Below, in pieces: positions 2,300 through 17,096 of a stretch of 64,000 nt of DNA. The notes under the pieces are model-generated. The model did no database searches. It saw only the letters and a program-made list of their open reading frames with translations, and was not told the DNA's origin. Positions within the stretch are counted from its first letter, which is position 1. The number at the start of each line of letters is the position of its first letter. The position numbers and the translations under genes were made by a program. The stretch spans positions 1 through 64,000 of the forward strand of contig JAVYNU010000001.1 of assembly GCA_038735125.1 (NCBI GenBank), written 5' to 3'. The stretch comes from Ignisphaera sp. GTDB taxonomy: Archaea; Thermoproteota; Thermoprotei_A; Sulfolobales; Ignisphaeraceae.

Positions 2300-3127
2300 A
2301 GCCCAGCAAAAGTTTTGGTTAATCAGCCAGCCTACCCCGCTTCTTGAACCCCACATCAAACGATGAAAAGCCATGTATATAAGCCATCTGACAAACAGAG
2401 CAGGCGGGGCGGCAGATGATGATAGCCCTACCAGCTGAGCTGTGATGTAGACCAGAACCGTGACGCCGCCCCAGAATATAGTACTATGCTAGTCCAGTCT
2501 ATAAAGTCTGCTGACAAATCTTGTTCGCAAACCCCGATCACATAGACCACACATAAACTCTACACATGAACTCGCTCATAGAGTCTGATGAAGCAACTCG
2601 ACGAAGTGGAACAACCGAGCCCCGCAAGGAACCCAGATTCCGTCTCTGTCTAGTAGATGCGATAGCGGCTCCAACTAGCTAGAGCTGTGACCAGGGTCTC
2701 CAGCAAGACAAACAAGAAATGCTACAACCTGCCACCACCATCGCACTACACAATGTTGCAGAGGACTGTGCTAAGACCGGCGACCCCAATAAGCTAAGCA
2801 AACCAAGCAAGAGACCAACTATCACCAACAAAGCAGTGGGCAGAGCATAAACAAAGATAGTCCAAGCACATCTGCTGTTACGTAGTACTAGCCCCAGCAC
2901 CCCACAATCACCTACCAAAACCAGGGAACCACCCCAGCAACAACCTCAAAACCCATTGCATCCCATCCACCATCTACAAAACAATTCACTGCATCAACAT
3001 ACATTGCATAGCATCACAATGCCACACCAAACAACAGCAATCCCAACAAAAACAATATACATCCCATGAGACGCTGTAGACCCACACCCCAACACACCCC
3101 ACACCACAAAACAACACAATTTTACAT
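2300..3127. other. Gene-poor stretch, G-poor on the plus strand
   Basis: I see no convincing gene. From about 2920 to 3127 the plus strand is very rich in A and C and poor in G, a composition also seen just outside the second leader copy near 16834-16900. One frame (2679-2918, minus) could encode a 79-aa peptide with a hydrophobic segment (TALLVIVGLLLGLLSLLG), but it is not supported by anything else. Confidence 0.4.
2679..2918 (-). CDS. Possible small membrane protein (doubtful)
   Basis: This 79-codon frame has one strongly hydrophobic stretch around residues 28-45 followed by SPVLAQ, which resembles a signal peptide or a single membrane helix. The rest is cysteine- and serine-rich and unlike a typical folded protein. 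The start is GTG or TTG-like and has no clear ribosome-binding site. It lies in decayed sequence between the array and the first leader copy. It may be a remnant or chance ORF; no family is recognised. Confidence 0.2.
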   Translation of the reverse strand: MVGDCGVLGLVLRNSRCAWTIFVYALPTALLVIVGLLLGLLSLLGSPVLAQSSATLCSAMVVAGCSISCLSCWRPWSQL

Positions 3128-3470
3128 ACCACAACAAAGAATAGAGTTTTAAGCTTTTCATTTCTTTCTATATTCTGTACATACAGTGCTGGGTTTGCAA
3201 AGATATTTAAGGGCTTTAAAAGCTTTTATCACTTCGTGAGAACAATCTCTGTGTACACAATTTTGTCAACTCCTTCTCAAAACTCTTTATGGTGTTCATT
3301 GCAATAGCTGTATTGTAGCTATGGTCTCTTCAGATCATTGATGTTCTATGGCAATCGCATGGCGATTAACGCTAATCTGCTTAAAAGCTTTTATACCCCA
3401 TTCAATCAGAAATGTATTGAACTGCTTCGAATCCACAAATGGAGACTCTCATCCAAGAGAACCAAGCACA
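3128..3470 (+). promoter_or_regulatory. CRISPR leader, left copy (second repeat family)
   Basis: This stretch of about 340 bp matches, in inverted orientation, 16492-16833, with near-identity over the last ~105 bp and an overall match that looks about 85-90% by eye. It ends exactly where a CRISPR repeat begins (3471), which is why I call it a leader. A TATA-like element, TTAAAAGCTTTTATA, lies about 70-90 bp before the repeat. It points rightwards, towards the 3' end of the csx1 gene. Confidence 0.85.
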
Positions 3471-3494
3471 GAATCCGATAAATGGAATTGAAAG
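3471..3494 (+). CRISPR. Single CRISPR repeat after the left leader
   Basis: A 24-nt repeat begins GAATCCGATAAATGG and ends AATTGAAAG. It is identical to the leader-adjacent repeat of the right unit (16468-16491, minus). No second repeat or spacer follows; sequence to 3605 is unique and shows no gene. This is a leader plus one repeat, either an eroded array or one that has not yet gained spacers. The repeat differs from that of the 1-1588 array. Confidence 0.85.
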
Positions 3495-3605
3495 ACAGAA
3501 ATGCTTAGAGTTTGACTCATGGTAGACAAGGGCATTCAACTCTCCTTCTGCAACGTGTTATTGAGGGCTTATACTGAGTTTGCTGAAGTCTGCGTCGCTA
3601 TGGCC

Positions 3606-5222
3606 TTAGTCGCCTTTCGCAATTATCTCGTTGACGAGTTCTAGACATGCTGGTATATAGCGTATGTAGATCTTCTCGTTCTGCTTCTTTACCTCTACAA
3701 TATTTCTTTCCAACCCGGCGTGCGCATAGAAGTGTCTCTCGTTGGCTTGGCATCTCTGCTCGGGCCTGCTTCTCGCTTTGTGCTCTGCTTCCATGAGTAC
3801 TTCTCTCAGCTTCTCCCTCGCTATGGCATCTTCAAGGCTCATATTGAGGACTTGGATTATGGTGTTGTAGACTAGTGGCTTGGACAGGTCTACTCCCAGC
3901 GTCTCGAGGGCATTCACATGCTTTTCAATGTCTTGCACTTCGTACATGAGGATCTTCGATGCTATTCTACTGAGCCCCAGCTCCCCACCCAGCTTCTCCA
4001 ACAGCTCTAGCTCAACCCAGCCCTCCCCAGCTTTGAAGTCGAGCTTGATGGCCTCCCTTAGCCTCTTCAGCAATCTCAGAGCTGAGAGCAGGTCCACAAC
4101 CCCTGGGGTTACTGCATACTTGTGCTCAACTGTAACCGAGTCTCCCTCTAGCCTCACACTCCTAGAGTATAGAGCGTCCTTGACCTTGCCCTCGAGGCTG
4201 GATATATCCCTCTCGAGCTCTCCCAGGTCTAAGCCGGCCATCCTCGTTAATATGTATAGAACGAGTCCATAGCTAGACGCCCTTGTAAGAGCGTTCACCA
4301 AGTCTGTGTAGCTTTTGGAGGTGTAGTCGATGAGCTTGCTCAGCTCCTGAATCTCCTTCGGCGGCTCAACCCTCTCGAGCGCTCTCGGCTTTAACTCCTC
4401 CATGGAAAGGTCGCTGACTGTTGACTCGAAGAGCTCCAGCGGCTTCTCCTCATACGTTCTAAGCTCGACTAGGTGGATGTGTGAGGACTGGCCTGGCTCT
4501 TGTACCGGATCGCTATTCACAACAGCTACCACCACTTTCTTCCCCCTCAGCGCACTATAAAGCCTTATGGACTTGTGAACAGCCTCTCTGCCAAGCACCG
4601 GAAGGTAGTTTACACCATGGCTTATGTCTAGCACCACCAGGTCTGGGTCTACACAATTGAGAGCATCTGCTAAATCGATTAACAACGCGGCATATGTGTT
4701 GAGCGGCGACCCCCTATAGACAAACCTCCTAAGGTTAGAACATGCCCTGTACACACCAATACCTGGAAGCACACTAACGCTTGCAGCAAGCTGCTCACCT
4801 ACCTCCTTAGTGTACATGTCTGTGAATCTCTCTAGAACCCACCTAGCCACCTCCACAACATCATTGTACTCGATATGGTCACTACACAGAGATCCCTCGA
4901 CACGCCTGCCCACCTCCTCAACGAGCTTAGCCCTTGGATCGCCCTCAACAGCCTTACCTGGTTGCTTACCCGAGCTGGGCCTCGGCGGGGTTGCAAGCGT
5001 GTCCAGGCCATAGATCCTCAGATGCGGCTCGAAGCCCAGCCTCTTCAAGGCAACCGCTTCAACAATAGTCGTTGAGTAGGAATCTATACCCTCCCCCGGC
5101 ACCCAACAACTAGGCTTACCCACACACCTCTTGTCATTGGGCACCACAGGGATGTATCTAGCTCTGTGCCACCCACCAGGGTAGCCCCACAAACCAATTA
5201 CCAGTACATTGATATTCGTCAT
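3606..5222 (-). CDS. csx1: Csx1-family CARF-HEPN nuclease of the type III system
   Basis: Csx1-type proteins bind cyclic oligoadenylate made by Cas10 through an N-terminal CARF domain and cut RNA with a C-terminal HEPN domain. Here the CARF region starts NVLVIGLWGYPGGW and contains VLDISHGVNYLP, typical of the Csx1/MJ1666 group. The HEPN motif RHFYAH (R-x4-H, Arg at about 496 and His at about 501 of 538) is intact, followed by AGLERN. I prefer the ATG at 5222, giving MTNINVLVIG; a longer frame from 5264 overlaps the upstream cas7 and adds 14 residues not expected in the family. It is the last gene of the effector operon, 13 bp after cas7. Activity is inferred, not shown. Confidence 0.88.
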   Translation of the reverse strand: MTNINVLVIGLWGYPGGWHRARYIPVVPNDKRCVGKPSCWVPGEGIDSYSTTIVEAVALKRLGFEPHLRIYGLDTLATPPRPSSGKQPGKAVEGDPRAKLVEEVGRRVEGSLCSDHIEYNDVVEVARWVLERFTDMYTKEVGEQLAASVSVLPGIGVYRACSNLRRFVYRGSPLNTYAALLIDLADALNCVDPDLVVLDISHGVNYLPVLGREAVHKSIRLYSALRGKKVVVAVVNSDPVQEPGQSSHIHLVELRTYEEKPLELFESTVSDLSMEELKPRALERVEPPKEIQELSKLIDYTSKSYTDLVNALTRASSYGLVLYILTRMAGLDLGELERDISSLEGKVKDALYSRSVRLEGDSVTVEHKYAVTPGVVDLLSALRLLKRLREAIKLDFKAGEGWVELELLEKLGGELGLSRIASKILMYEVQDIEKHVNALETLGVDLSKPLVYNTIIQVLNMSLEDAIAREKLREVLMEAEHKARSRPEQRCQANERHFYAHAGLERNIVEVKKQNEKIYIRYIPACLELVNEIIAKGD

Positions 5223-5235
5223 GGCGCTATCGCGA

Positions 5236-6198
5236 CTAGGCGAACTCTTTAAGCAGTTCGCCAAGAGGTTTCTGAGCTAGGTTCTCGATATTTATCAGCG
5301 CATCAAGTAGTTTTGTTTTGTCGTTAATGGTATTCAGATCTATGTATATCCCTCTACTGTTTTCAAGATCTAGGAAAAGCTTGCCAACACCTATGGACTT
5401 TGCACCTCCAATAGATATCCCCACCTTGTTTAGATATTCTAGCACAGCTCTAAGTATTCTAAGTTCTGGGCCACCTCTTACAACATTCTTTATGGTTATA
5501 TCTATCGATAGAGAGTCTAATGCTGCGTACTCTCGTGTGTATAGCCGTTGGGGCATTGCTGTAGAGCTCTGGCGAGAGATAGATACATGGGTAACAGTAT
5601 GCGTAGAAACTATGTGTGGCTCTACCCTAAGCACAGATATCTTGGATCCTAGACCAGGGCCTCCGAAGAGCCTGCATATCGGGCACAGAGCTGAGAGCAC
5701 TGGCTCTAGCTCTCTAGGCATTTTGTCGAGGCTATCAACACCCCCCATTATATTCGAAATCTCTGTAGCGGCATCATCGGTTAAGAAATGCCTGTAGAGA
5801 TCTCTGTTACTGGTTAATACCTTGACTAAGTTCTTGACGAGGCTTAGGTACTCATCTCCGCGGGGAGAACATATATGTCTGATTATATCTTCCTCAGGTT
5901 CGCAGTGTGCCTCAGCGAAGATCCTGTCGGCTATGTCTCCAAATGCGTTGAGAGACACCTTGGCAATGGATTCTGCAGCTGATCTGAGAGCCCCTATGAA
6001 ACTCGATGCAGGTATGTAGATCTCGCCGCCAACTCTGAATACGGGGGTGTATGCCGCCCCCCTCTCTGAGGCTATATGCACTAGCCCAAGACTGTTAAGG
6101 GGCTTGAACACCAGCTTTAGGTAGAGCACAGTGTTCAGCTTTTTCTCTCGCTCAATAAACTCTCTCAGCCTATTACCAACAATGTTGGCGTCTATCAC
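5236..6198 (-). CDS. Cas7-like RAMP subunit (Csm3-type) lacking the catalytic Asp
   Basis: A 320-aa RAMP of the Csm3/Cas7 superfamily and part of the effector backbone that holds crRNA. It shows the family signature IYIPASSFIGALRS, the block CRLFGGPGLGSKIS around residues 173-187 and a C-terminal glycine-rich loop SIGGAKSIGVGKLF. Where other Cas7s carry an aspartate just before the IPASS motif, this protein reads RGAAYTPVF, so it probably does not cut target RNA. GTG start at 6198 follows GGTGGTG. It sits 1 bp after the Csx10-like gene. Likely an end or insert subunit. Confidence 0.88.
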   Translation of the reverse strand: MIDANIVGNRLREFIEREKKLNTVLYLKLVFKPLNSLGLVHIASERGAAYTPVFRVGGEIYIPASSFIGALRSAAESIAKVSLNAFGDIADRIFAEAHCEPEEDIIRHICSPRGDEYLSLVKNLVKVLTSNRDLYRHFLTDDAATEISNIMGGVDSLDKMPRELEPVLSALCPICRLFGGPGLGSKISVLRVEPHIVSTHTVTHVSISRQSSTAMPQRLYTREYAALDSLSIDITIKNVVRGGPELRILRAVLEYLNKVGISIGGAKSIGVGKLFLDLENSRGIYIDLNTINDKTKLLDALINIENLAQKPLGELLKEFA

Positions 6199-6199
6199 T

Positions 6200-7393
6200 T
6201 TACACCACCTCTACAAAATCTTGTCTAATGAGCTTGGCGAAGTTGAATCCCTGAGACGATAAGCTGTTGAATCCTGTCGCTACTGTATAGGCTAGAAGCT
6301 CATGGTTGTACACACGCAGTATCTCAGCCACAGCCAGGGTTCCAGGGCTATTAACCTCCACAGGCAACTTTGGTAGCCCAGTTCTATAAGACCACCCATA
6401 ATACTTTGTTGTGTGTCTGCCGATAACAGCGCGAATCTTTATCACAGCAGCTGTTGATCCAAAGACCTTCACAGTTATTTCGTCGCCTGTCACCACAGGT
6501 CCTGGCACACCATCTATGTTTAGCATTGGTGACGCTGCGTAGAGTACATATAGTTTGTTGTCTAGGTCAAATGGGTCAATGACTTTTGATTGGTCTATAC
6601 TCTCTATGCATAGTCTCGATATCCCGAATCCTCGCCCACCACCTCTGCCAACTCTAACAACTAGGCAACTCTTATCATAGGATTTGAGCGCGTCAGCTAT
6701 AGGCGAACCACTTTGAGTCGCTATAAGCCCTACAAACATGTTGCCAGGCTCTATGTACTCGTATGCATAGAGAGCCCCCGAAGCCGCGCTTCTGCGGGCT
6801 CTATCAACAGCTGTCTCTACGTAGATACTTGTGCTCGGCTCCGATACCACCCATCCACCAGCATCCCTAACTATTGTGTTTCCACAGGCACTTTTCATCT
6901 CCGTAGAGGACTTTAGCACCTCAATTGGGTTGCTAACAGCGTTTTTGAATGCCTTTACATCTGTGATGAGTGTGACATTAAATATCAGCTCCTTCAGAGC
7001 TTCTTCCACGCCATATTTCCCTGTTTCAATGTATTGTAGGAGCCTGTCTATGCCGAAGCTCAGCACCCTGGGGGATCCAGTCGCGTGCTTGAACATAAAT
7101 GTGAGTGCATGTGCAAATGCCACGTCTTTGATTGGTATAGCTGTATCGGCTTTTTCGCGGGGCACATGTAGAGCCGGGGTCACACTGTGGCTTGGATTTA
7201 GAGACTCGCGGTGAGCGTCTGCACTTGTTATAGCGTTTTCGCTTAGAAGCTGTGAGAATAGAGCGCCTCTAACCACCGAGCCCAATATGTATTTGGATAC
7301 GGTGGTGTAGCTCATGCCTCTGTAGCCCTGGGCGGAGGTCACGATGGCAGGCGTCAACAGCTCTAGTCTATACCTATATAACCCTATCTCCAT
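6200..7393 (-). CDS. csx10: Csx10/Cas5-like RAMP of a type III-D-like complex
   Basis: This RAMP of about 397 aa resembles Csx10, the Cas5-type subunit of III-D effectors that caps the 5' handle end of crRNA. The N-terminal half carries LELLTPAIVTSAQGY and an insert with several cysteines. A central block reads VDRARRSAASGALYAYEYIE then PGNMFVGLIA, followed by the glycine loop VGRGGGRGFGISRL. I choose ATG 7393 because AGGAGGTG lies just upstream; GTG 7399 is possible. It stands between two Cas7 genes with 1-10 bp gaps. The subtype assignment rests mainly on this gene and on the several separate Cas7s. Confidence 0.75.
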   Translation of the reverse strand: MEIGLYRYRLELLTPAIVTSAQGYRGMSYTTVSKYILGSVVRGALFSQLLSENAITSADAHRESLNPSHSVTPALHVPREKADTAIPIKDVAFAHALTFMFKHATGSPRVLSFGIDRLLQYIETGKYGVEEALKELIFNVTLITDVKAFKNAVSNPIEVLKSSTEMKSACGNTIVRDAGGWVVSEPSTSIYVETAVDRARRSAASGALYAYEYIEPGNMFVGLIATQSGSPIADALKSYDKSCLVVRVGRGGGRGFGISRLCIESIDQSKVIDPFDLDNKLYVLYAASPMLNIDGVPGPVVTGDEITVKVFGSTAAVIKIRAVIGRHTTKYYGWSYRTGLPKLPVEVNSPGTLAVAEILRVYNHELLAYTVATGFNSLSSQGFNFAKLIRQDFVEVV

Positions 7394-7402
7394 ATCCACC
7401 TC

Positions 7403-8107
7403 CTAAGAAACCTGGGTAACGGAGAGCACGTATTTTACATTCTCATCTTCTGCAATGTCCGGGGGCTCAATCTTTAAGATGTAGCTCTTTGCCGACGACC
7501 TTCTACCCACATACTTGTAGCGTAGCATAGCTATCGCTATGGTTAGTAGCCTAGCCACATCAGTAAGTTCGCTGAAATCGGCTGACTCGTACATTATCTC
7601 CCCATAGAACAGGGTTGCTGGGGCAACCCTAAGCTCTTTGAACAAAGCTCCTTTGGCAGCTCTAGCACATCTGTCGTCTAGCCTCACATGGGGCTCGATA
7701 TAGGTACTTGGAGACAGTAGAGTGCTGTCCTTGAACAGATAGGCCATTGGCTCATCGTTTGCCAGTGCCTTAGCCGACTCCACATCTTTAACTGGGTAGA
7801 GAGGGCCGAACATGGTTGGCGACGGCACTACAGCAACTTTGTCGCTAAATGGTGTTAGGGGCCCAAATACCTTCAATATGATGTCTCTGCTCTGCACAAT
7901 GCCTACTCTAGTGAGGTGGTCAAAAACCTCCTCAGCTGCTCTCCTCAGAACCCCCTTGATGTAGGTGTGCGGTATGCAGAGAACCTCGCCTCCTCGTGCA
8001 TGCCTACAGGCTGTTGTAACAACATTTGCTTCGAGAAGCCCTTTGCCACTGCCCCACAGCCCACCACCCTCAAGCTTGAGCAAATAACATATTCTGAGAC
8101 GAGCCAT
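7403..8107 (-). CDS. Small Cas7-like RAMP subunit
   Basis: A RAMP of about 234 aa, shorter than the other Cas7s here. It starts MARLRICYLLKLEGGGLWGS and contains VLCIPHTYIKGVLRRAAEE, the counterpart of the IPGSSLKG motif. The position of the cleavage aspartate is occupied by LLEANVV, so it is probably not catalytic. I choose the ATG at 8107, preceded by GGGGGTTG, over a start at 8122 that would overlap cas10. It follows cas10 by 4 bp and may serve as the Cas7 next to Cas10 or as a cap subunit. Confidence 0.82.
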   Translation of the reverse strand: MARLRICYLLKLEGGGLWGSGKGLLEANVVTTACRHARGGEVLCIPHTYIKGVLRRAAEEVFDHLTRVGIVQSRDIILKVFGPLTPFSDKVAVVPSPTMFGPLYPVKDVESAKALANDEPMAYLFKDSTLLSPSTYIEPHVRLDDRCARAAKGALFKELRVAPATLFYGEIMYESADFSELTDVARLLTIAIAMLRYKYVGRRSSAKSYILKIEPPDIAEDENVKYVLSVTQVS

Positions 8108-8111
8108 TGCA

Positions 8112-10934
8112 TCAACCCCCAATGACTATTTCAACAAGGTTGTAGATGTCGAATAGAGGTGGCATATCTTTGCAGAGAAGCGATAGTCTTGCCATTCCCT
8201 GGTAAACACCTCTGCTCCTCTCCTCAACGCGGTTAGACTCTCTAGCTAGGTATAGACCTAGGACGAGGTTGTTAGCCCCGTGGTCATGGACTATGGTCAT
8301 GGCTTCCTGTACCAATGACTCTATGTCCCGCAGAACATTCTTCAGATCCTCTTTGCTGGCTAGCTGTATAAGGATCTCCGTAGCTGTGCCCAGGTCATCG
8401 ACTCTCTTCCCAATTCCTTGGCTTAGAAGCGCATCGAGAACTGTTAGCATGTCGTCGCAGCCCATACCCACACCCCTCTGAACAGTTACTACGAAAGGCT
8501 GTTGACTCAGTCTATAGCCGGTGGCAGAGTACTTTTTGAAGAGCTGTGCAACCTCTGTCTCGAAGAGCTGCCACTCGCTTTTGATGAAAGATACTGTGGC
8601 AACGAGCTTCGGGCCCAGCTTAAACACCCTCTCTTCTCGGAATCTAGACTTGCACCTCTTGAGCAGGTATTCAGCTGCGTCGAGGACATTCCATATGTTG
8701 TGTTTGGGCTTGGCAGCTGCTATAGCTATAGACAGGGTGAGCTCGCCGCCATTCAATCTCCAGAAGGCCTCGGCTGTGGCCAGAGCCAGCGGCAGAGCTA
8801 CGCTGGAGGGCCATATAGCAAGCATATCGTCTCCACCAGCATATAGGGTACCTGCGAAAACCCTGGTAGCAATCTTGTCGAACTCGTCGATATTGCCAAT
8901 ACTGTTCCTGAGCCTTTGAAGCGCTGTTAGGAACCCCAGCTTCAAACCCATATCTATTCTAATGCTTCTGCACATAGCCTCAGCAATGTTTAGTGCCGAC
9001 GCCATGTACTGCCCAGCGGCATTTCCATCAACTTTAACTATAGCAATCTTGCGCTGCTCAACACCAAGCCTATCTAGCTCAACTCCTGAGAGCCAGGAGA
9101 TGAGGTATTGATACACCTCCTTAACCCTGTTCTTCTCGATTATGTCTCTAGCCTCTCTATAGCCTAGGGAGGCTAGGTACCCAAGCTTCGTTCTTATATA
9201 CATGCCTGTGCCAAGGTCGTGCAGACTTCTGCACTCGGAACACACATACTCGCCGTTGAGATTCTCTGTAGCCGGCCTCCGTCTACAGTACTCGCATAGC
9301 ACCTCATACCCCGTCTCAGTCAATCTTCTCATTGTCCTGCGAAGCTCTTTTCTTGCTGCAAGTTCGGCAACACCTCTTCTAATGGACCAGCCCCAACTGG
9401 ATTTAAGCTCCGATAAAGCATAGGTCAAATTGATGTCGAAGCCAACTAGGCTCTTAACGTACTCAGCAACCTTCTCAACATCTGTGGTGCGCGACGGGGC
9501 AAAGGCTATTACAAAGCCCCCGCCTGCATAGACTATAGCGTCTAGCGAGAGACCGAGCTTCTCGATTATCGCTCTGGGGATGGCATATACTGTGCAGGCG
9601 TCTATCACAAAGCTTGTAGCTGTTAGTATTCTAAGCGACTCCCTCTTTATGAAACTCTGAATCCCTGCCACATCAACTACCAGCAGCTTGACCTCCTCTA
9701 TGCTTGACCCAGGATCCTCGAGGAGGTCAGAGGGTATCAGCCGGGCTTTGAGGCTCTCAGCTATCTTCTTTACAACACTGCTGTACAGGTCGTTAGGCAT
9801 AGAGAGCCAGGCATCCCATATCTTGGGCCCTGTCCCTGCAAAAAGATCCTCAACCTTTAGCCCACGCCCTTCAGCATATTTGGCGAGGGTGTCATGTACA
9901 ATAGATGCGAAGTACTTGCTAAGCCTATCGATATTCGAAGACCTCTGGTCAGCTTTGCTTAGAATCTCTCCTAGCTCCTTTACTTTCACCTCCAATCCCA
10001 AACCATCTAGCTTAAATGAGCTTGGCAACTTCTCTACATCGTGATGCTTCTCTATGAGCTCACAAAGAGCTTTGTAGACCTCGTCCAAGCCCAGCCCAGA
10101 CAAGAAGTCTTTGAGCCTGCTCTTCTCGATTAGCTCAACAGACTTCGCAGCATGGCTTACATAAACCCTATCTCTGTAGATCTCAACCCAGCTAGCGGGC
10201 TTGCCTATATCGTGTAGAAGCGCAGCTAGTCTAAGCAAAGCCAGCTCCAGTCTATGTTGCTTAGAGTTCTTCTGGAGGGAATCCCAATATTTGTTGACAT
10301 ACATTGCTACAGCCAGTCCTGTTGTGGCAATGGTGTGCGGGATTAGCTTAGATATGCTACACCCAGGCCTAGTATCTGAAGGCAAATTCAATAAGAGGTC
10401 GAGCCTCTCGAGAGCCTCTTTCATGTCCTGCGGTGGAGCCACAATTTCTCCGAAGTGCTTCACAAACTCGTTGATGGTCCCAGCAACCTTCTCGTAATCA
10501 AACTCTTTGGCTAATCCCCTCAAACTCCTGCCTTCACCCAGTATCTCCCGCATAACAGCTGTGTCTCTACCCATAATCCATGCGTAGAGCAGGTCTTGTG
10601 GAGACGGTGTCACAGCGCCGACCACTCCCTGAAGCTGTACCGGGGGTGTCAGCGGGGTTACGAAGTATCTGCGAAAGGCTATCGATATAGCGTCGGCGAG
10701 CCTCTCAAGCAAGCATATCGCTAGGTCTACCCCCTGCAAGTCTCTGCAAATCCTAAACGCCTGTTCCACACCTTGGAAGAGCGTTGAGACAGCGTTGACA
10801 GCAGACTCAACTAATCCAAGCAGCTTTTTCCCATAGTTCGAGAGCTTCTCCAGACTCACACTAGTTATGTAGGTCTGCTGTCCAGTCTCATCGATGAGAG
10901 GAGACTGGTGTGTCACAACTATGTAATCGCTCAT
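8112..10934 (-). CDS. cas10: Cas10 large subunit with HD nuclease and GGDD cyclase
   Basis: Signature protein of type III CRISPR, 940 aa. An HD nuclease domain lies after an unusually long N-terminal helical region, with the HD pair at residues 241-242 (LLHDIGKP) and further histidines in KHHD at 297-298. The first palm domain begins near 416 (LLVVDVAGIQSFIK) and has a degenerate YAGGGF at the GGDD position. A four-cysteine zinc site lies at 547/550 and 565/568. The second palm carries D635 (VKVDGN) and an intact GGDD at 700-703. Both DNase and cyclic oligoadenylate synthesis are therefore expected, matching the Csx1 gene downstream. ATG start at 10934. Confidence 0.96.
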   Translation of the reverse strand: MSDYIVVTHQSPLIDETGQQTYITSVSLEKLSNYGKKLLGLVESAVNAVSTLFQGVEQAFRICRDLQGVDLAICLLERLADAISIAFRRYFVTPLTPPVQLQGVVGAVTPSPQDLLYAWIMGRDTAVMREILGEGRSLRGLAKEFDYEKVAGTINEFVKHFGEIVAPPQDMKEALERLDLLLNLPSDTRPGCSISKLIPHTIATTGLAVAMYVNKYWDSLQKNSKQHRLELALLRLAALLHDIGKPASWVEIYRDRVYVSHAAKSVELIEKSRLKDFLSGLGLDEVYKALCELIEKHHDVEKLPSSFKLDGLGLEVKVKELGEILSKADQRSSNIDRLSKYFASIVHDTLAKYAEGRGLKVEDLFAGTGPKIWDAWLSMPNDLYSSVVKKIAESLKARLIPSDLLEDPGSSIEEVKLLVVDVAGIQSFIKRESLRILTATSFVIDACTVYAIPRAIIEKLGLSLDAIVYAGGGFVIAFAPSRTTDVEKVAEYVKSLVGFDINLTYALSELKSSWGWSIRRGVAELAARKELRRTMRRLTETGYEVLCEYCRRRPATENLNGEYVCSECRSLHDLGTGMYIRTKLGYLASLGYREARDIIEKNRVKEVYQYLISWLSGVELDRLGVEQRKIAIVKVDGNAAGQYMASALNIAEAMCRSIRIDMGLKLGFLTALQRLRNSIGNIDEFDKIATRVFAGTLYAGGDDMLAIWPSSVALPLALATAEAFWRLNGGELTLSIAIAAAKPKHNIWNVLDAAEYLLKRCKSRFREERVFKLGPKLVATVSFIKSEWQLFETEVAQLFKKYSATGYRLSQQPFVVTVQRGVGMGCDDMLTVLDALLSQGIGKRVDDLGTATEILIQLASKEDLKNVLRDIESLVQEAMTIVHDHGANNLVLGLYLARESNRVEERSRGVYQGMARLSLLCKDMPPLFDIYNLVEIVIGG

Positions 10935-10946
10935 CTATTCACACCT

Positions 10947-11255
10947 TCACAGTTTGGTCGATAGGTTCTCTGCTGACCTATAGTCTCTCCTTAGAACAGA
11001 TTGGCTGTCGAAGACATACGGGCATTCCACATCATATCTGCCGACCCGGTTGCCCCCAGATATAACGTGGTATATGCACACCTCTCTACCCTTGTCCGAT
11101 CTCTCTTTCGTCACTACTATGGCTAGCTTACTCCTCTTCACATCGCTAATCACATTGTTGTCCACGGTGCAGACAACTTGGCCTCTAGACGATAGGTCGT
11201 CGTCGTAAAAGACTATGAAGGCCTTCTTACCTAGGAGCTCCCCCTCGAAACTCAC
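10947..11255 (-). CDS. Small protein of unknown function inside the cas operon
   Basis: 102 aa, GTG start at 11255 overlapping the stop of the upstream cas7 by 4 bp and ending 12 bp before cas10, so it is certainly translated with the effector. It begins MSFEGELLGKKAFIVFYDDD and contains AIVVTKERSDKGREVCIYHV. It looks like a compact alpha/beta domain with no membrane segment. I recognise no family; it does not resemble the helical Cas11 subunit, which is encoded elsewhere in the operon. It could be an extra effector subunit, comparable in position to Csx19-type genes of III-D loci. Confidence 0.8.
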   Translation of the reverse strand: MSFEGELLGKKAFIVFYDDDLSSRGQVVCTVDNNVISDVKRSKLAIVVTKERSDKGREVCIYHVISGGNRVGRYDVECPYVFDSQSVLRRDYRSAENLSTKL

Positions 11256-12268
11256 TTCGCAACCACCTTGTCTTTCACATCAGCTTCTGAAAATCCGTGT
11301 AGTTGCGATAGCTGGGGGTACCTGGTGAGGGTCTCGTCAATGGCCATGTCAATGAGTTTCTGCAACTCCTTTTCTCTGCAAATAATTTCGATGTGCTCGA
11401 CACTGCAGTTCAGCCCCCACTTAGCGAGGGTCTCGGCGAATCGAAGTGGAGCTTTGAGCGCTACAACCATGAATCTCGCTTTGCCCATGTCGGGATACGC
11501 ATATTTGTGTTTGCCGATGAGCACCGGTATGCCAATGGAGCTGCCCTTAGCTATGCCCATTGATATGAGCAGCGCCCCTATCTCCTCAAGCTTGAGTGCA
11601 GAGAACATGATTGAGCCTTTGAGTCTGGTGCCCGGCTTTATTGCATAGACCTTTTCCCCGTATGGCAGATCCCTCTTCTCGTAAGCTTCTAGACTACAGC
11701 AGAAGTTGCTTGGCATAACCCTGCCCACAACCCCTGGAGCCCCAAAGATGTCGCAGACAACACATATTGTATAGTCTTGCGTCTCTATAGGATTGCAATA
11801 TGGGCCTCGATTCTCTGAAACTGCTTTCCAGATTCTTGCATGTCTCCAGCCGTGGGCGCCTGGTGGTGGAGGTGATGAAATTGGCTTGACATCGCTTCGC
11901 ATACAAGATATGGCCGAGCCATCTTTGGCAGGGCATAGCTCTAGCCTAGCCCTTAAGAGACCCTTTATTGTGGAGCCCGGTATACACACACTATCTCCAT
12001 AAACAACGTTGTCTATATAGTCGAGAGCAACATACGATGAAACCCTCTGCAACGCTTTTATATCACCTTTAATGAGAGCTTCTTCAACAGTATTTAGCAG
12101 GCTAGCAGCTGTTTTAATGTCGATTAGACGCTCCAGCCTCTCCCTACCCATAGACACATGGATATATGAAAGAGCCTCTATCTCAGCCTCGATAACGCCG
12201 CTGAGTGTCCCCTCCACCTCTATATCTCTTACAGTAAAAGCCTTTCTGGTCACAGCTATGCTAGACAT
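11252..12268 (-). CDS. Cas7-like RAMP subunit with conserved Asp
   Basis: A Csm3/Cas7-family RAMP of about 338 aa. An aspartate in YIDNVVYG (residue 91 counted from the longer start at 12283) precedes VCIPGSTIKGLLRARLE and matches the position of the target-RNA cleavage residue of Csm3. A cysteine-rich insert (CVVCDIFGAPGVVG with nearby Cys) may bind zinc. I choose ATG 12268 (MSSIAVTRKAF), which has GGAGGTG about 7 nt upstream; a TTG at 12283 would add five residues. It overlaps its upstream neighbour by 13 bp, showing tight translational coupling. Confidence 0.88.
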   Translation of the reverse strand: MSSIAVTRKAFTVRDIEVEGTLSGVIEAEIEALSYIHVSMGRERLERLIDIKTAASLLNTVEEALIKGDIKALQRVSSYVALDYIDNVVYGDSVCIPGSTIKGLLRARLELCPAKDGSAISCMRSDVKPISSPPPPGAHGWRHARIWKAVSENRGPYCNPIETQDYTICVVCDIFGAPGVVGRVMPSNFCCSLEAYEKRDLPYGEKVYAIKPGTRLKGSIMFSALKLEEIGALLISMGIAKGSSIGIPVLIGKHKYAYPDMGKARFMVVALKAPLRFAETLAKWGLNCSVEHIEIICREKELQKLIDMAIDETLTRYPQLSQLHGFSEADVKDKVVAK

Positions 12269-13176
12269 GAGCTCCACCTCCAACCACTTTCAGACACCTT
12301 CCTAAGCTTCTGCAATGCACCTCTCCAAGCATTGGCAAAGTTCTTGAGCATCTCCAGCCAGCTGCTCTCCACCACCTTTACATCCACGTCCAACGGATCG
12401 AGAGCCGGTATAGAGTCTTTAAGTTCCGCACCCCCTCTATAGTCATAGCCATAAACTTTCAGATTCTCGATTTTGACCCAGCCAAAGCCCCGTGTCTTGA
12501 GGCCTCCAATCTTCAGAAGACCCATGTGCATATCCAGTAGGGACTCTGCAACAACGCCAATTGCATAGTTAGGTAGATTAACAAACTCTACTCTGAAACC
12601 AAACTTGGCGCCAGGCTCCACATACTCAACACTGAACAGAGCCCTGGGTTTTGCCACACCAGTCCTCCTATCGATTGCAACCATAGTTCTATAGCCAAGT
12701 CTGTACCCATCAGTGGGGTAGCTGTCATAGAACCTGATGTGCGAGACTAGGCCAGGGGAGCCAAACATTAGGCATGCCAAGCATATAGGCTTAGGTAACG
12801 CATTAGCTATGTTCTCCGCAAGGCTCTCATAAGAAGCCCTATGCTTTTCAAGCTCCTCAAACTCATCTCCTTTGAGACATGTATCCCCGGGCACACCACC
12901 ACAAACAGCAAGCCCTGCACTCCTCATCAATTTAACAACATAGCTTCTGAAAACCCCTTTCAGTGACGAGCCAGGGATATAGGGGATGCTTTTGCCGTCA
13001 GCCGTGGTTATCTTGACAACCACCAGGTCTACAGGCTCGAAAGTAGCTGCAGCACGACCAGCTCCGACCCTGAGCGGCTCAATATTTGTTATAGTGCCCT
13101 CAAACACCACCCTTCTAACCAGCTTGTGAAGTCCAAACCATTCAAAAGCCTTGGCAGCTACACTCACTTTCACCAC
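12256..13176 (-). CDS. Cas7-like RAMP subunit with conserved Asp
   Basis: 306 aa, Csm3-type backbone subunit. It carries NIEPLRVGAGR, the putative cleavage Asp at residue 50 (FEPVDLVVVK), IPYIPGSSLKGVFRS, the block CLMFGSPGLVSHIRF and a C-terminal LKIGGLKTRGFGWVKI glycine loop. GTG start (13176 or 13173) overlapping the preceding cas7 by a few bases. The conserved Asp suggests it contributes one of the regularly spaced cuts in target RNA; this is inference from Csm3. Confidence 0.9.
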   Translation of the reverse strand: MVKVSVAAKAFEWFGLHKLVRRVVFEGTITNIEPLRVGAGRAAATFEPVDLVVVKITTADGKSIPYIPGSSLKGVFRSYVVKLMRSAGLAVCGGVPGDTCLKGDEFEELEKHRASYESLAENIANALPKPICLACLMFGSPGLVSHIRFYDSYPTDGYRLGYRTMVAIDRRTGVAKPRALFSVEYVEPGAKFGFRVEFVNLPNYAIGVVAESLLDMHMGLLKIGGLKTRGFGWVKIENLKVYGYDYRGGAELKDSIPALDPLDVDVKVVESSWLEMLKNFANAWRGALQKLRKVSESGWRWSSCLA

Positions 13177-14126
13177 CTCGAAATCAATTCTCTTAGTGTA
13201 ATGTTCTTCTCCTCAACTAGGGAAAGGTCTTTCACAACATAGACTACAACACGGGTTTTCTCGGGGTCTAGCCTCAGAACCCCGTGTCCAACGCTCTTCA
13301 TACCACCAAACATTATACCTTGAGATGCAAACATCTTTAGATATGTTCTCAGAAGTTTACAGACATCGCTATCACATGCAGTGATGTCTATATTCTTTAG
13401 CTCTGCTCTGAAGCGCCACCTGTATCCAGGGGGTATGAATTCATATTCAAATAGCGCACCACTTCTAGCAGCCTCTCTAAACCGGTCTATTGCTACTCGT
13501 GCGCGTGTAGCTAGCTTAACCTCCTGATCTTTCACCGGATACACATCGAAGAATATGGCCTTAGAGGCGAGGGCTTGGTTGCCGAAGACCCTGCATATTA
13601 TACATGGGCTATACTGCTTCAACACAGACAACAGATTATCTACAGACGACACCTGCACTATACTAGACATAATGTTGCTGACCACAGCTTCTGCATCTCT
13701 TATGCGCCTACGGGAAGCTATTTCAGCAATAACCCCCCGGCTTTGTTTATCAAGAAGTGTCTTCTTCAATTCATCGAAGCTTCTAGATTTTTGCGCCACT
13801 TGATACACATAGTTAAGGAATTCAACTGCAAAAGAGCATGTTGCATCGTTGAATAGTTCACACACCTTGTAGTTACCGGCTCTAGCCACAGCCTCTAACA
13901 GAGACCTAGTAGCACCTTTGATGGTAGATGCAGGAATGTATGGCACACCTCTAGGATCCCTCAGCACAGGAAGATCTACTTCACCTAACCCACCACGGCC
14001 TTTACCAATGCGAAGCGGTGTTTCATTAACAGCTTCACCTTCTATAACAGTAATCGACTTCAGAACATCGTGATCGATGCCTAGTACACGAAGTCCTTCC
14101 ACAACCTTCTGAATCTCGCCACTCAA
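13170..14126 (-). CDS. Cas7-like RAMP subunit (Csm3-type) with conserved Asp
   Basis: 318 aa. Family blocks in order: LRIGKGRGGLGEVDLPVLRD with the putative catalytic Asp at 51, VPYIPASTIKGATRSLLE, CRVFGNQALASKA and FASQGIMFGGMKSVGHGVLR. Apparent TTG start at 14126. It lies 21 bp downstream of the small-subunit gene. Of the five Cas7 paralogs this most resembles a classical Csm3. Confidence 0.9.
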   Translation of the reverse strand: MSGEIQKVVEGLRVLGIDHDVLKSITVIEGEAVNETPLRIGKGRGGLGEVDLPVLRDPRGVPYIPASTIKGATRSLLEAVARAGNYKVCELFNDATCSFAVEFLNYVYQVAQKSRSFDELKKTLLDKQSRGVIAEIASRRRIRDAEAVVSNIMSSIVQVSSVDNLLSVLKQYSPCIICRVFGNQALASKAIFFDVYPVKDQEVKLATRARVAIDRFREAARSGALFEYEFIPPGYRWRFRAELKNIDITACDSDVCKLLRTYLKMFASQGIMFGGMKSVGHGVLRLDPEKTRVVVYVVKDLSLVEEKNITLRELISRW

Positions 14127-14147: not shown

Positions 14148-14606
14148 TTAAATACGTAAGAGGGTTTTGAGATAAGTTTGTGCAAATCCTTGAGGTGCTT
14201 GCATGTTGGGGTTGCGCAAATAGTTGCTATATTGCTTTCGCAGATCATTTTGCGGATTAAGTTCCCAACACTCAAAGAACCACTTAAAATAGCTGAGAGC
14301 AATCCTCAGCACCTTTTGCTGTTCCTTTATATCCCTAACATTAGAGATGAGATTATTGAGTACCCGATACAATCTAGTACCGCTAACACGTTCCCATTCT
14401 TTTCGACTCATTTGACGAACCAGATAGAGTAGTAGTGTAAAACCATCAACAGTTTCATTAAGCTCTATAAGCTTGTTAATTTGTGATCGATCAAGATAAT
14501 CGCATTTCCCATTTTCACATTTAATAGGGTTGACCCTTGCAGCAACAGCTGCTAATGCAAGCTCATCTAGCACATTACTGGGGGGCGTGGGAGCCGTATA
14601 GGACAA
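14148..14606 (-). CDS. Putative Cas11 (Csm2/Cmr5-like) small subunit, first gene of operon
   Basis: 152 aa, almost entirely helical, with CENGKCDYLDRSQINKL near the N-terminus and KVLRIALSYFKWFFECWE near residue 105. Small helical proteins at this position in type III operons are Cas11, which lines the belly of the complex. Sequence similarity in this family is low, so the call rests on size, predicted helicity and place. The start appears to be TTG at 14606. A TATA-like box lies just upstream, so this gene probably heads the operon that runs to csx1. Confidence 0.65.
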   Translation of the reverse strand: MSYTAPTPPSNVLDELALAAVAARVNPIKCENGKCDYLDRSQINKLIELNETVDGFTLLLYLVRQMSRKEWERVSGTRLYRVLNNLISNVRDIKEQQKVLRIALSYFKWFFECWELNPQNDLRKQYSNYLRNPNMQAPQGFAQTYLKTLLRI

Positions 14607-16399: not shown

Positions 16400-16491
16400 C
16401 TTCCAACTCCATTTATCGGATTCAATCTCGGCTATCTCATCCTATCACCTTTTTCAACGGCTTTTGCCTTTCAATTCCATTTATCGGATTC
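16400..16491 (-). CRISPR. Minimal CRISPR array: two repeats, one spacer
   Basis: Read on the minus strand, the leader-adjacent repeat is 16491-16468, identical to the repeat at 3471-3494. A 44-nt spacer follows (16467-16424), then a terminal repeat 16423-16400 with two mismatches. A degenerate last repeat is normal at the leader-distal end, so this unit looks like a complete array of one spacer. It points leftwards into the CRISPR island. Confidence 0.88.
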
Positions 16492-16833
16492 TGTGCTTGG
16501 TTCTCTTGGATGAGAGTCTCCATTTGCGGATTCGAAGCAGTTCAATACATTTCTGATTGAATGGGGTATAAAAGCTTTTAAGCAGATTAGCGTTAATCAC
16601 CATGTAATAATCTTCGACTATCAATGATCTGAAGAGACCATAGCTGCAATACAGCTATTACAATGTCTCCCATGGGAAAACTCTAGAAAGAGTTGACAAA
16701 ATTGTGTACACAGAGAACTTTGCTATGAAACCATAAAAACTTTTAAAGCCCTTAAATATCTTTGCAAACCCAGCACTGTATGTAACGAATATGGAAAGAA
16801 ATGAAAAACTTAAAACTCTATTGTTTTGTGTGT
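16492..16833 (-). promoter_or_regulatory. CRISPR leader, right copy (inverted relative to the left)
   Basis: Inverted counterpart of 3128-3470, ending exactly at the repeat boundary 16491/16492. The ~105 bp next to the repeat differ from the left copy by about one base, while the middle is more diverged. It includes TTAAAAGCTTTTATA as a likely promoter. The outer end lies about 25 bp from the stop of the small winged-helix gene at 16857. Confidence 0.85.
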
Positions 16834-16856
16834 TCTGTGTTCTTGGGTCTATGTGT

Positions 16857-17096
16857 TTATTGTTTGGTGTTGCTGCATGGTTTTAGTAGCATCTTTTTTC
16901 TTTGTGGTGATGGTTCTTTGCATATTGTGCCCTGTCTTATCATTTCGGCTACAGTTTTTCTCAGCTCTATGCCGTCTATGTATATCTGCTCTTCTGTTTC
17001 TAGCTGGTCTCTAAGCTCTTCGAATGTTATTCCGCTTGGGTTTCTAGCTATTACCTTCGCTATGGCTTCTCTGAGGCTCTTCTCTGCAGAGCTCAT
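16857..17096 (-). CDS. Small winged-helix-like partner of the radical SAM gene
   Basis: 79 aa, ATG 17096, overlapping the end of the radical SAM gene by 53 bp in another frame. It reads AIAKVIARNPSGITFEELRD, then LRKTVAEMIRQGTICKE, a pattern that fits a small winged-helix domain, with a basic tail. The long overlap suggests the pair is translated together. It could be a regulator or a substrate/partner of the enzyme; function unknown. Confidence 0.7.
   Translation of the reverse strand: MSSAEKSLREAIAKVIARNPSGITFEELRDQLETEEQIYIDGIELRKTVAEMIRQGTICKEPSPQRKKMLLKPCSNTKQ

Follow-up and report, generated by a model that had tools for sequence, protein, structure and literature searches.

The DNA analysed here comprises the first 64,000 nucleotides of contig JAVYNU010000001.1 from an assembly of Ignisphaera sp., a hot-spring archaeon (GCA_038735125.1, here G000); we refer to this whole stretch as the window. 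It contains a 13-kb type III-D-like interference cassette flanked by two CRISPR units that face inward, their leaders pointing into the cassette. The cassette genes run from 3606 to about 14606, all on the minus strand, and include no adaptation genes. They encode, from left to right, a Csx1 ribonuclease with CARF and HEPN domains (3606..5264), three RAMP-type proteins, one Csm3-like, one resembling the Cas5 of III-D/Csx10 and one weakly Csm3-like (5236..8122), Cas10 with HD and palm domains (8112..10934), Csm3/Csx7-like Cas7 proteins (11252..14126) and a Csm2-like small subunit of the III-D kind (14148..14606).

The left unit, on the plus strand, is made up of a leader (about 3129..3470), a sole repeat with the sequence GAATCCGATAAATGGAATTGAAAG (3471..3494) and a trailer (3495..3605). 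The initial annotation described it as one perfect repeat after a full-length leader, followed by unique sequence, and this description holds: the best match to the repeat 25-80 nt downstream (12/24) is equalled by about 30% of shuffles, and no second repeat is present there. The repeat belongs to the same family as those of multi-repeat arrays in congeners, where arrays of 3-20 repeats differing from it by one to three changes occur in G002, G003, G004 and G009. With up to three mismatches allowed, the window holds three copies where shuffling predicts 0.01, which rules out a chance occurrence, and the whole 1.81-Mb genome holds the same three and no others. About 370 nt upstream of 3471 can be aligned with four other leaders, one in the window (16885-16492, minus strand) and three, 90-93% identical to the left leader, in the nearest relative found, a metagenome-assembled Thermoproteota genome (G009, JAUQPB010000001.1). 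All of the aligned leaders terminate exactly at the repeat. Inside the left leader, a TATA-like element (AAAAGCTTTTATA) starts 87 nt before the repeat, and this spacing is constant in the closest arrays and in most of the solitary units described below.

The initial annotation was correct about the left unit but missed its inverted second copy on the minus strand (16491-16400), which has one spacer and a degenerate repeat. Its leader (16492..16885) is 93% identical to the left one over the final 204 nt, a stretch that takes in the repeat, and the likeness remains recognisable over about 370-400 nt. The leader-proximal repeat (16468..16491), identical to that at 3471-3494, is followed by a single 44-nt spacer (16424..16467) and by a degenerate terminal repeat with two changes, GAATCCGATAAATGGAGTTGGAAG (16400..16423). 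The corresponding right array of G009 has six repeats; its oldest spacer is identical to the only spacer of G000, and its degenerate last repeat has both of these changes and one more. The right array of G000 is the exact product expected from recombination between repeats 1 and 5 of the six-repeat array. Neither this shared spacer nor the left trailer has an exact match among viral contigs, and we dropped the idea of a viral origin for either.

The left slot also differs between the two genomes. The cassettes are 98% identical (97% for Cas10), and G009 has 16 repeats and 15 spacers flanked by the same leader and trailer as in G000. The trailer starts at an identical position behind the repeat in both genomes and differs at one position in 102 nt from the sequence behind the last repeat of the 15-spacer array; it is thus a trailer and not a spacer. 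The initial annotation had proposed to search sister strains for this locus with a full array, and G009 bears this check out. The repeats of the G009 left array, the last one included, are all identical and have A at position 7, where the G000 repeats, the shared right terminal repeat and most of the older repeats of the third G009 array have G. Elsewhere, A is common at this position in other congeners, and the third G009 array mixes A, G and T. The G009 scaffold also has a gap of 100 N (L089:4151-4250), whose sides overlap by 127 nt precisely where the terminal repeat and trailer lie; the apparent tandem copy of repeat and trailer is a scaffold join, not a real duplication. This gap and overlap hint at array variants within the G009 population.

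The element at 3471-3494 is therefore a genuine CRISPR repeat behind a full leader, and the left unit is a CRISPR array with zero spacers, since the relative has the same leader, 16 repeats with 15 spacers and a trailer that is equal from its first base. By the strict definition, which asks for at least two repeats separated by spacers, a unit with one repeat is a former or future array rather than an array.

The likeliest history of the left unit, which we hold with fair but not strong confidence, is that the array collapsed in the G000 lineage. The repeat next to the leader would have undergone homologous recombination, or slippage, with a terminal repeat that was still undamaged, which deleted all of the spacers and left one repeat; the right array would also have collapsed, but its degenerate terminal repeat would have let recombination reach only the last intact repeat, so that the oldest spacer was kept. 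The two arrays fit this model because the array with an intact last repeat is empty, while the one with a degenerate last repeat stopped at its last spacer. The left leader, repeat and trailer are joined at exact repeat boundaries on both sides. Repeat-to-repeat deletions such as r1-r80 have been seen in Sulfolobus (PMC3025118), and both complete collapse to one repeat and the protective effect of terminal-repeat polymorphism have been stated before: an unchanged terminal repeat recombines with the leader-proximal repeat and erases the array to one copy, which a changed one does not easily do (PMC8047081). We infer that spacers were lost rather than gained, that recombination removed them and that the unit would be competent for refilling, the leftover leader and repeat being what Cas1-Cas2 would need. 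Of the two histories offered by the initial annotation, an array that lost all of its spacers or a naive landing site, the first is thus favoured.

An ancestral empty slot, which before filling would equal the naive landing site, is the less likely of these two but carries real weight. The ancestor would have had the left leader, repeat and trailer and, on the right, a leader, a repeat, one spacer and a degenerate repeat; G000 would have stayed unchanged and G009 would later have gained 15 and 4 spacers. With a single close relative, loss in G000 is inseparable from gain in G009, which counts against collapse, as does the contrast between the uniform A-at-position-7 repeats of the G009 left array and the G found in G000 and in most other old copies. 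Collapse has been modelled in Legionella, where a refilled array is recognised by having a single repeat type as far as its last copy (PMC7056967); because the G009 left array is likewise uniform and undegraded down to its last repeat, it may itself have passed through a one-repeat state, and its sequence suggests that it grew from a single repeat. Spacer turnover since the split is also indicated by the cassette-side arrays of a second repeat (see below), which have no spacer in common between the two genomes. Position 7 is nevertheless a weak marker, given its variation in congeners and in the third G009 array, and gain of spacers would require active adaptation genes in G009, where none were found. 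The failure to find Cas1, Cas2 and Cas6 in either assembly at the same time weighs against collapse.

Two further explanations account for the same junction with much less success. It is improbable that the assembler output the deleted path from a source population mixing full and deleted arrays. Both genomes are drafts in several contigs, G009 is metagenome-assembled, and its gap and overlap at the repeat and trailer look as if two different spacers had preceded the last repeat in the population; reads spanning leader, repeat and trailer would still be needed, so that the deleted variant would exist, and the mirror array is shortened in a consistent way. Least probable of all is that the leader and repeat were retained as a promoter or regulatory RNA and not as an array. 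Some solitary units of G003 do lie 0-52 nt before genes (DUF72, VapB, threonine synthase-like and winged-helix-like, names given from reading the translations), but others face gene ends, and the unit before the DUF72 gene is missing from seven orthologues, which led us to reject a conserved promoter function. The left repeat itself has no gene to drive: it faces csx1, which is encoded on the opposite strand, from the 3' side. Behind it there is neither a degenerate second repeat nor a guide-like match, and the 45 nt after the repeat match the rest of the window exactly over 11 nt at most. A CreTA or other repeat-derived regulatory RNA was rejected likewise, as the best downstream match (12/24) is within the range of shuffles and there is neither a degenerate second repeat nor a partial promoter match. 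A solitary repeat unit of a virus does not fit the host cas context; with position 7 left open, the repeat had no exact match in 2.9 million viral contigs, and we found no leader carried by plasmids.

Collapse in the G000 lineage thus remains our preferred history, and refilling would call for adaptation genes. Searches for Cas1 (PF01867), Cas2 (PF09827) and Cas6 gave no hit in the G000 or G009 assemblies, and the same searches were positive in congeners; the presence of Cas1 and Cas2 expected of a functional adaptation site was therefore not observed in G000, where an assembly gap is possible. Both assemblies are rated 99% or more complete and hold many arrays. The absence may reflect a genuine loss or an assembly gap. 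Of the congeners, G004 has cas1, cas2 and cas6 flanked on both sides by an array of the other repeat (GAAACTCCC...), and G003 and G010 have them next to one such array. A gap is possible because two GAAACTCCC arrays of G000 extend towards contig ends (C1 and C5). At the G009 end beside the corresponding array, however, there is a primase-like gene (from reading the translation) and no cas gene, which counts against the idea that Cas1 and Cas2 are missing because a cluster next to the left GAAACTCCC array was cut off. In G000, the arrays of this second repeat (GAAACTCCCATAAGGGAGTAGAAAG) lie at 1-1588 of the window, at C5:229-2218 and at C11:9152-10438 and contain 71 perfect copies. In the window's own array, the first repeat-spacer units are duplicated (76-nt units at 1-202). 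Spacer acquisition has probably happened since the two genomes split, because the GAAACTCCC array has no spacer common to both. Under either history, collapse or ancestral slot, the initial annotation's reading of the left unit as an array lacking spacers and a potential landing site is upheld.

The two genomes differ in a second respect. The flank to the left of the left leader in G000 corresponds to the right flank in G009 and vice versa (96-100% identity), whereas the orientation of the cassette itself is preserved. The cassette has thus inverted with respect to the chromosome, and the breakpoints lie inside the leader-repeat modules; the modules at the inversion occupy 3077-3500 and 16462-16885 of the window. 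Leaders within one genome have common changes that are absent from those of the other genome, for example CCCATTCAATCAGAAATGT as against CAGATTCAACACATAGTAT. Such mosaic leaders suggest gene conversion between the leaders of a genome and, because the shared changes are genome-specific, they show leader-repeat modules that do recombine, which, like the inversion, speaks in favour of collapse. This indicates that recombination at paired modules can turn an entire type III cassette around.

Leaders followed by a single repeat also occur away from this cassette in congeners, with eight such solitary units in G003 (L093:16013, L093:2957, L094:2544, L094:2082, L095:3401, L095:2621, L098:1238 and L124:1664) and one in G004 (L092:2043). 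In most, the repeat is preceded at 86-88 nt by a TATA-like element, and two of the units form a back-to-back divergent pair. Their leaders are related, and because the sequences downstream of their repeats share nothing, these units do not belong to a single conserved element. The initial annotation had named relatives carrying the repeat inside an unrelated conserved element as the observation that would overturn its reading, and no such element was found. A broader and rather doubtful idea is that, in this genus, the leader plus single repeat makes up a self-contained unit that disperses, settling at unrelated sites as an empty CRISPR slot or as a promoter; inverted pairs would flip the cassette between them and exchange leaders, and emptying, refilling and inversion would form one cycle.

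The left unit is a natural case of a known process, to which the contrast between terminal repeats and the inversion of the cassette add value. The closest parallel is found in the collapsed and repopulated I-F arrays of Legionella pneumophila (Deecker and Ensminger, 2020; PMC7056967), with which it has in common the single repeat left, here presumably, by recombination between first and last repeats, and whose refilled arrays resemble the G009 left array in keeping one repeat type to the very end. The Legionella work constructed the spacerless state experimentally and deduced its natural occurrence from scars; in G000 the spacerless array is directly visible, next to the type III cassette of an archaeon whose relative has a filled counterpart. 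The CRISPR loci of Sulfolobus (Gudbergsdottir et al., 2011; PMC3025118) offer an archaeal precedent for the loss of spacer blocks with exact repeat junctions, r1-r80 included, but those deletions were recovered under selection in culture and an end state of leader plus one repeat was not their subject. An intact leader with one repeat is also what minimal adaptation substrates consist of (Yosef et al., 2012; Wei et al., 2015, both cited in PMC8047081; I-F aCRISPR, PMC9602844); these were engineered, while the left unit is natural and known here from its sequence.

Collapse to a single repeat had been predicted and built in the laboratory before, but a natural empty locus beside a filled sister is seldom described, and we found none in a literature search. 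Because the two arrays of G000 differ in their last repeats and in where collapse stopped, the protection of old spacers by degenerate terminal repeats becomes directly testable. The locus provides a natural example of a CRISPR array able to lose its whole contents and, probably, to take up spacers again.
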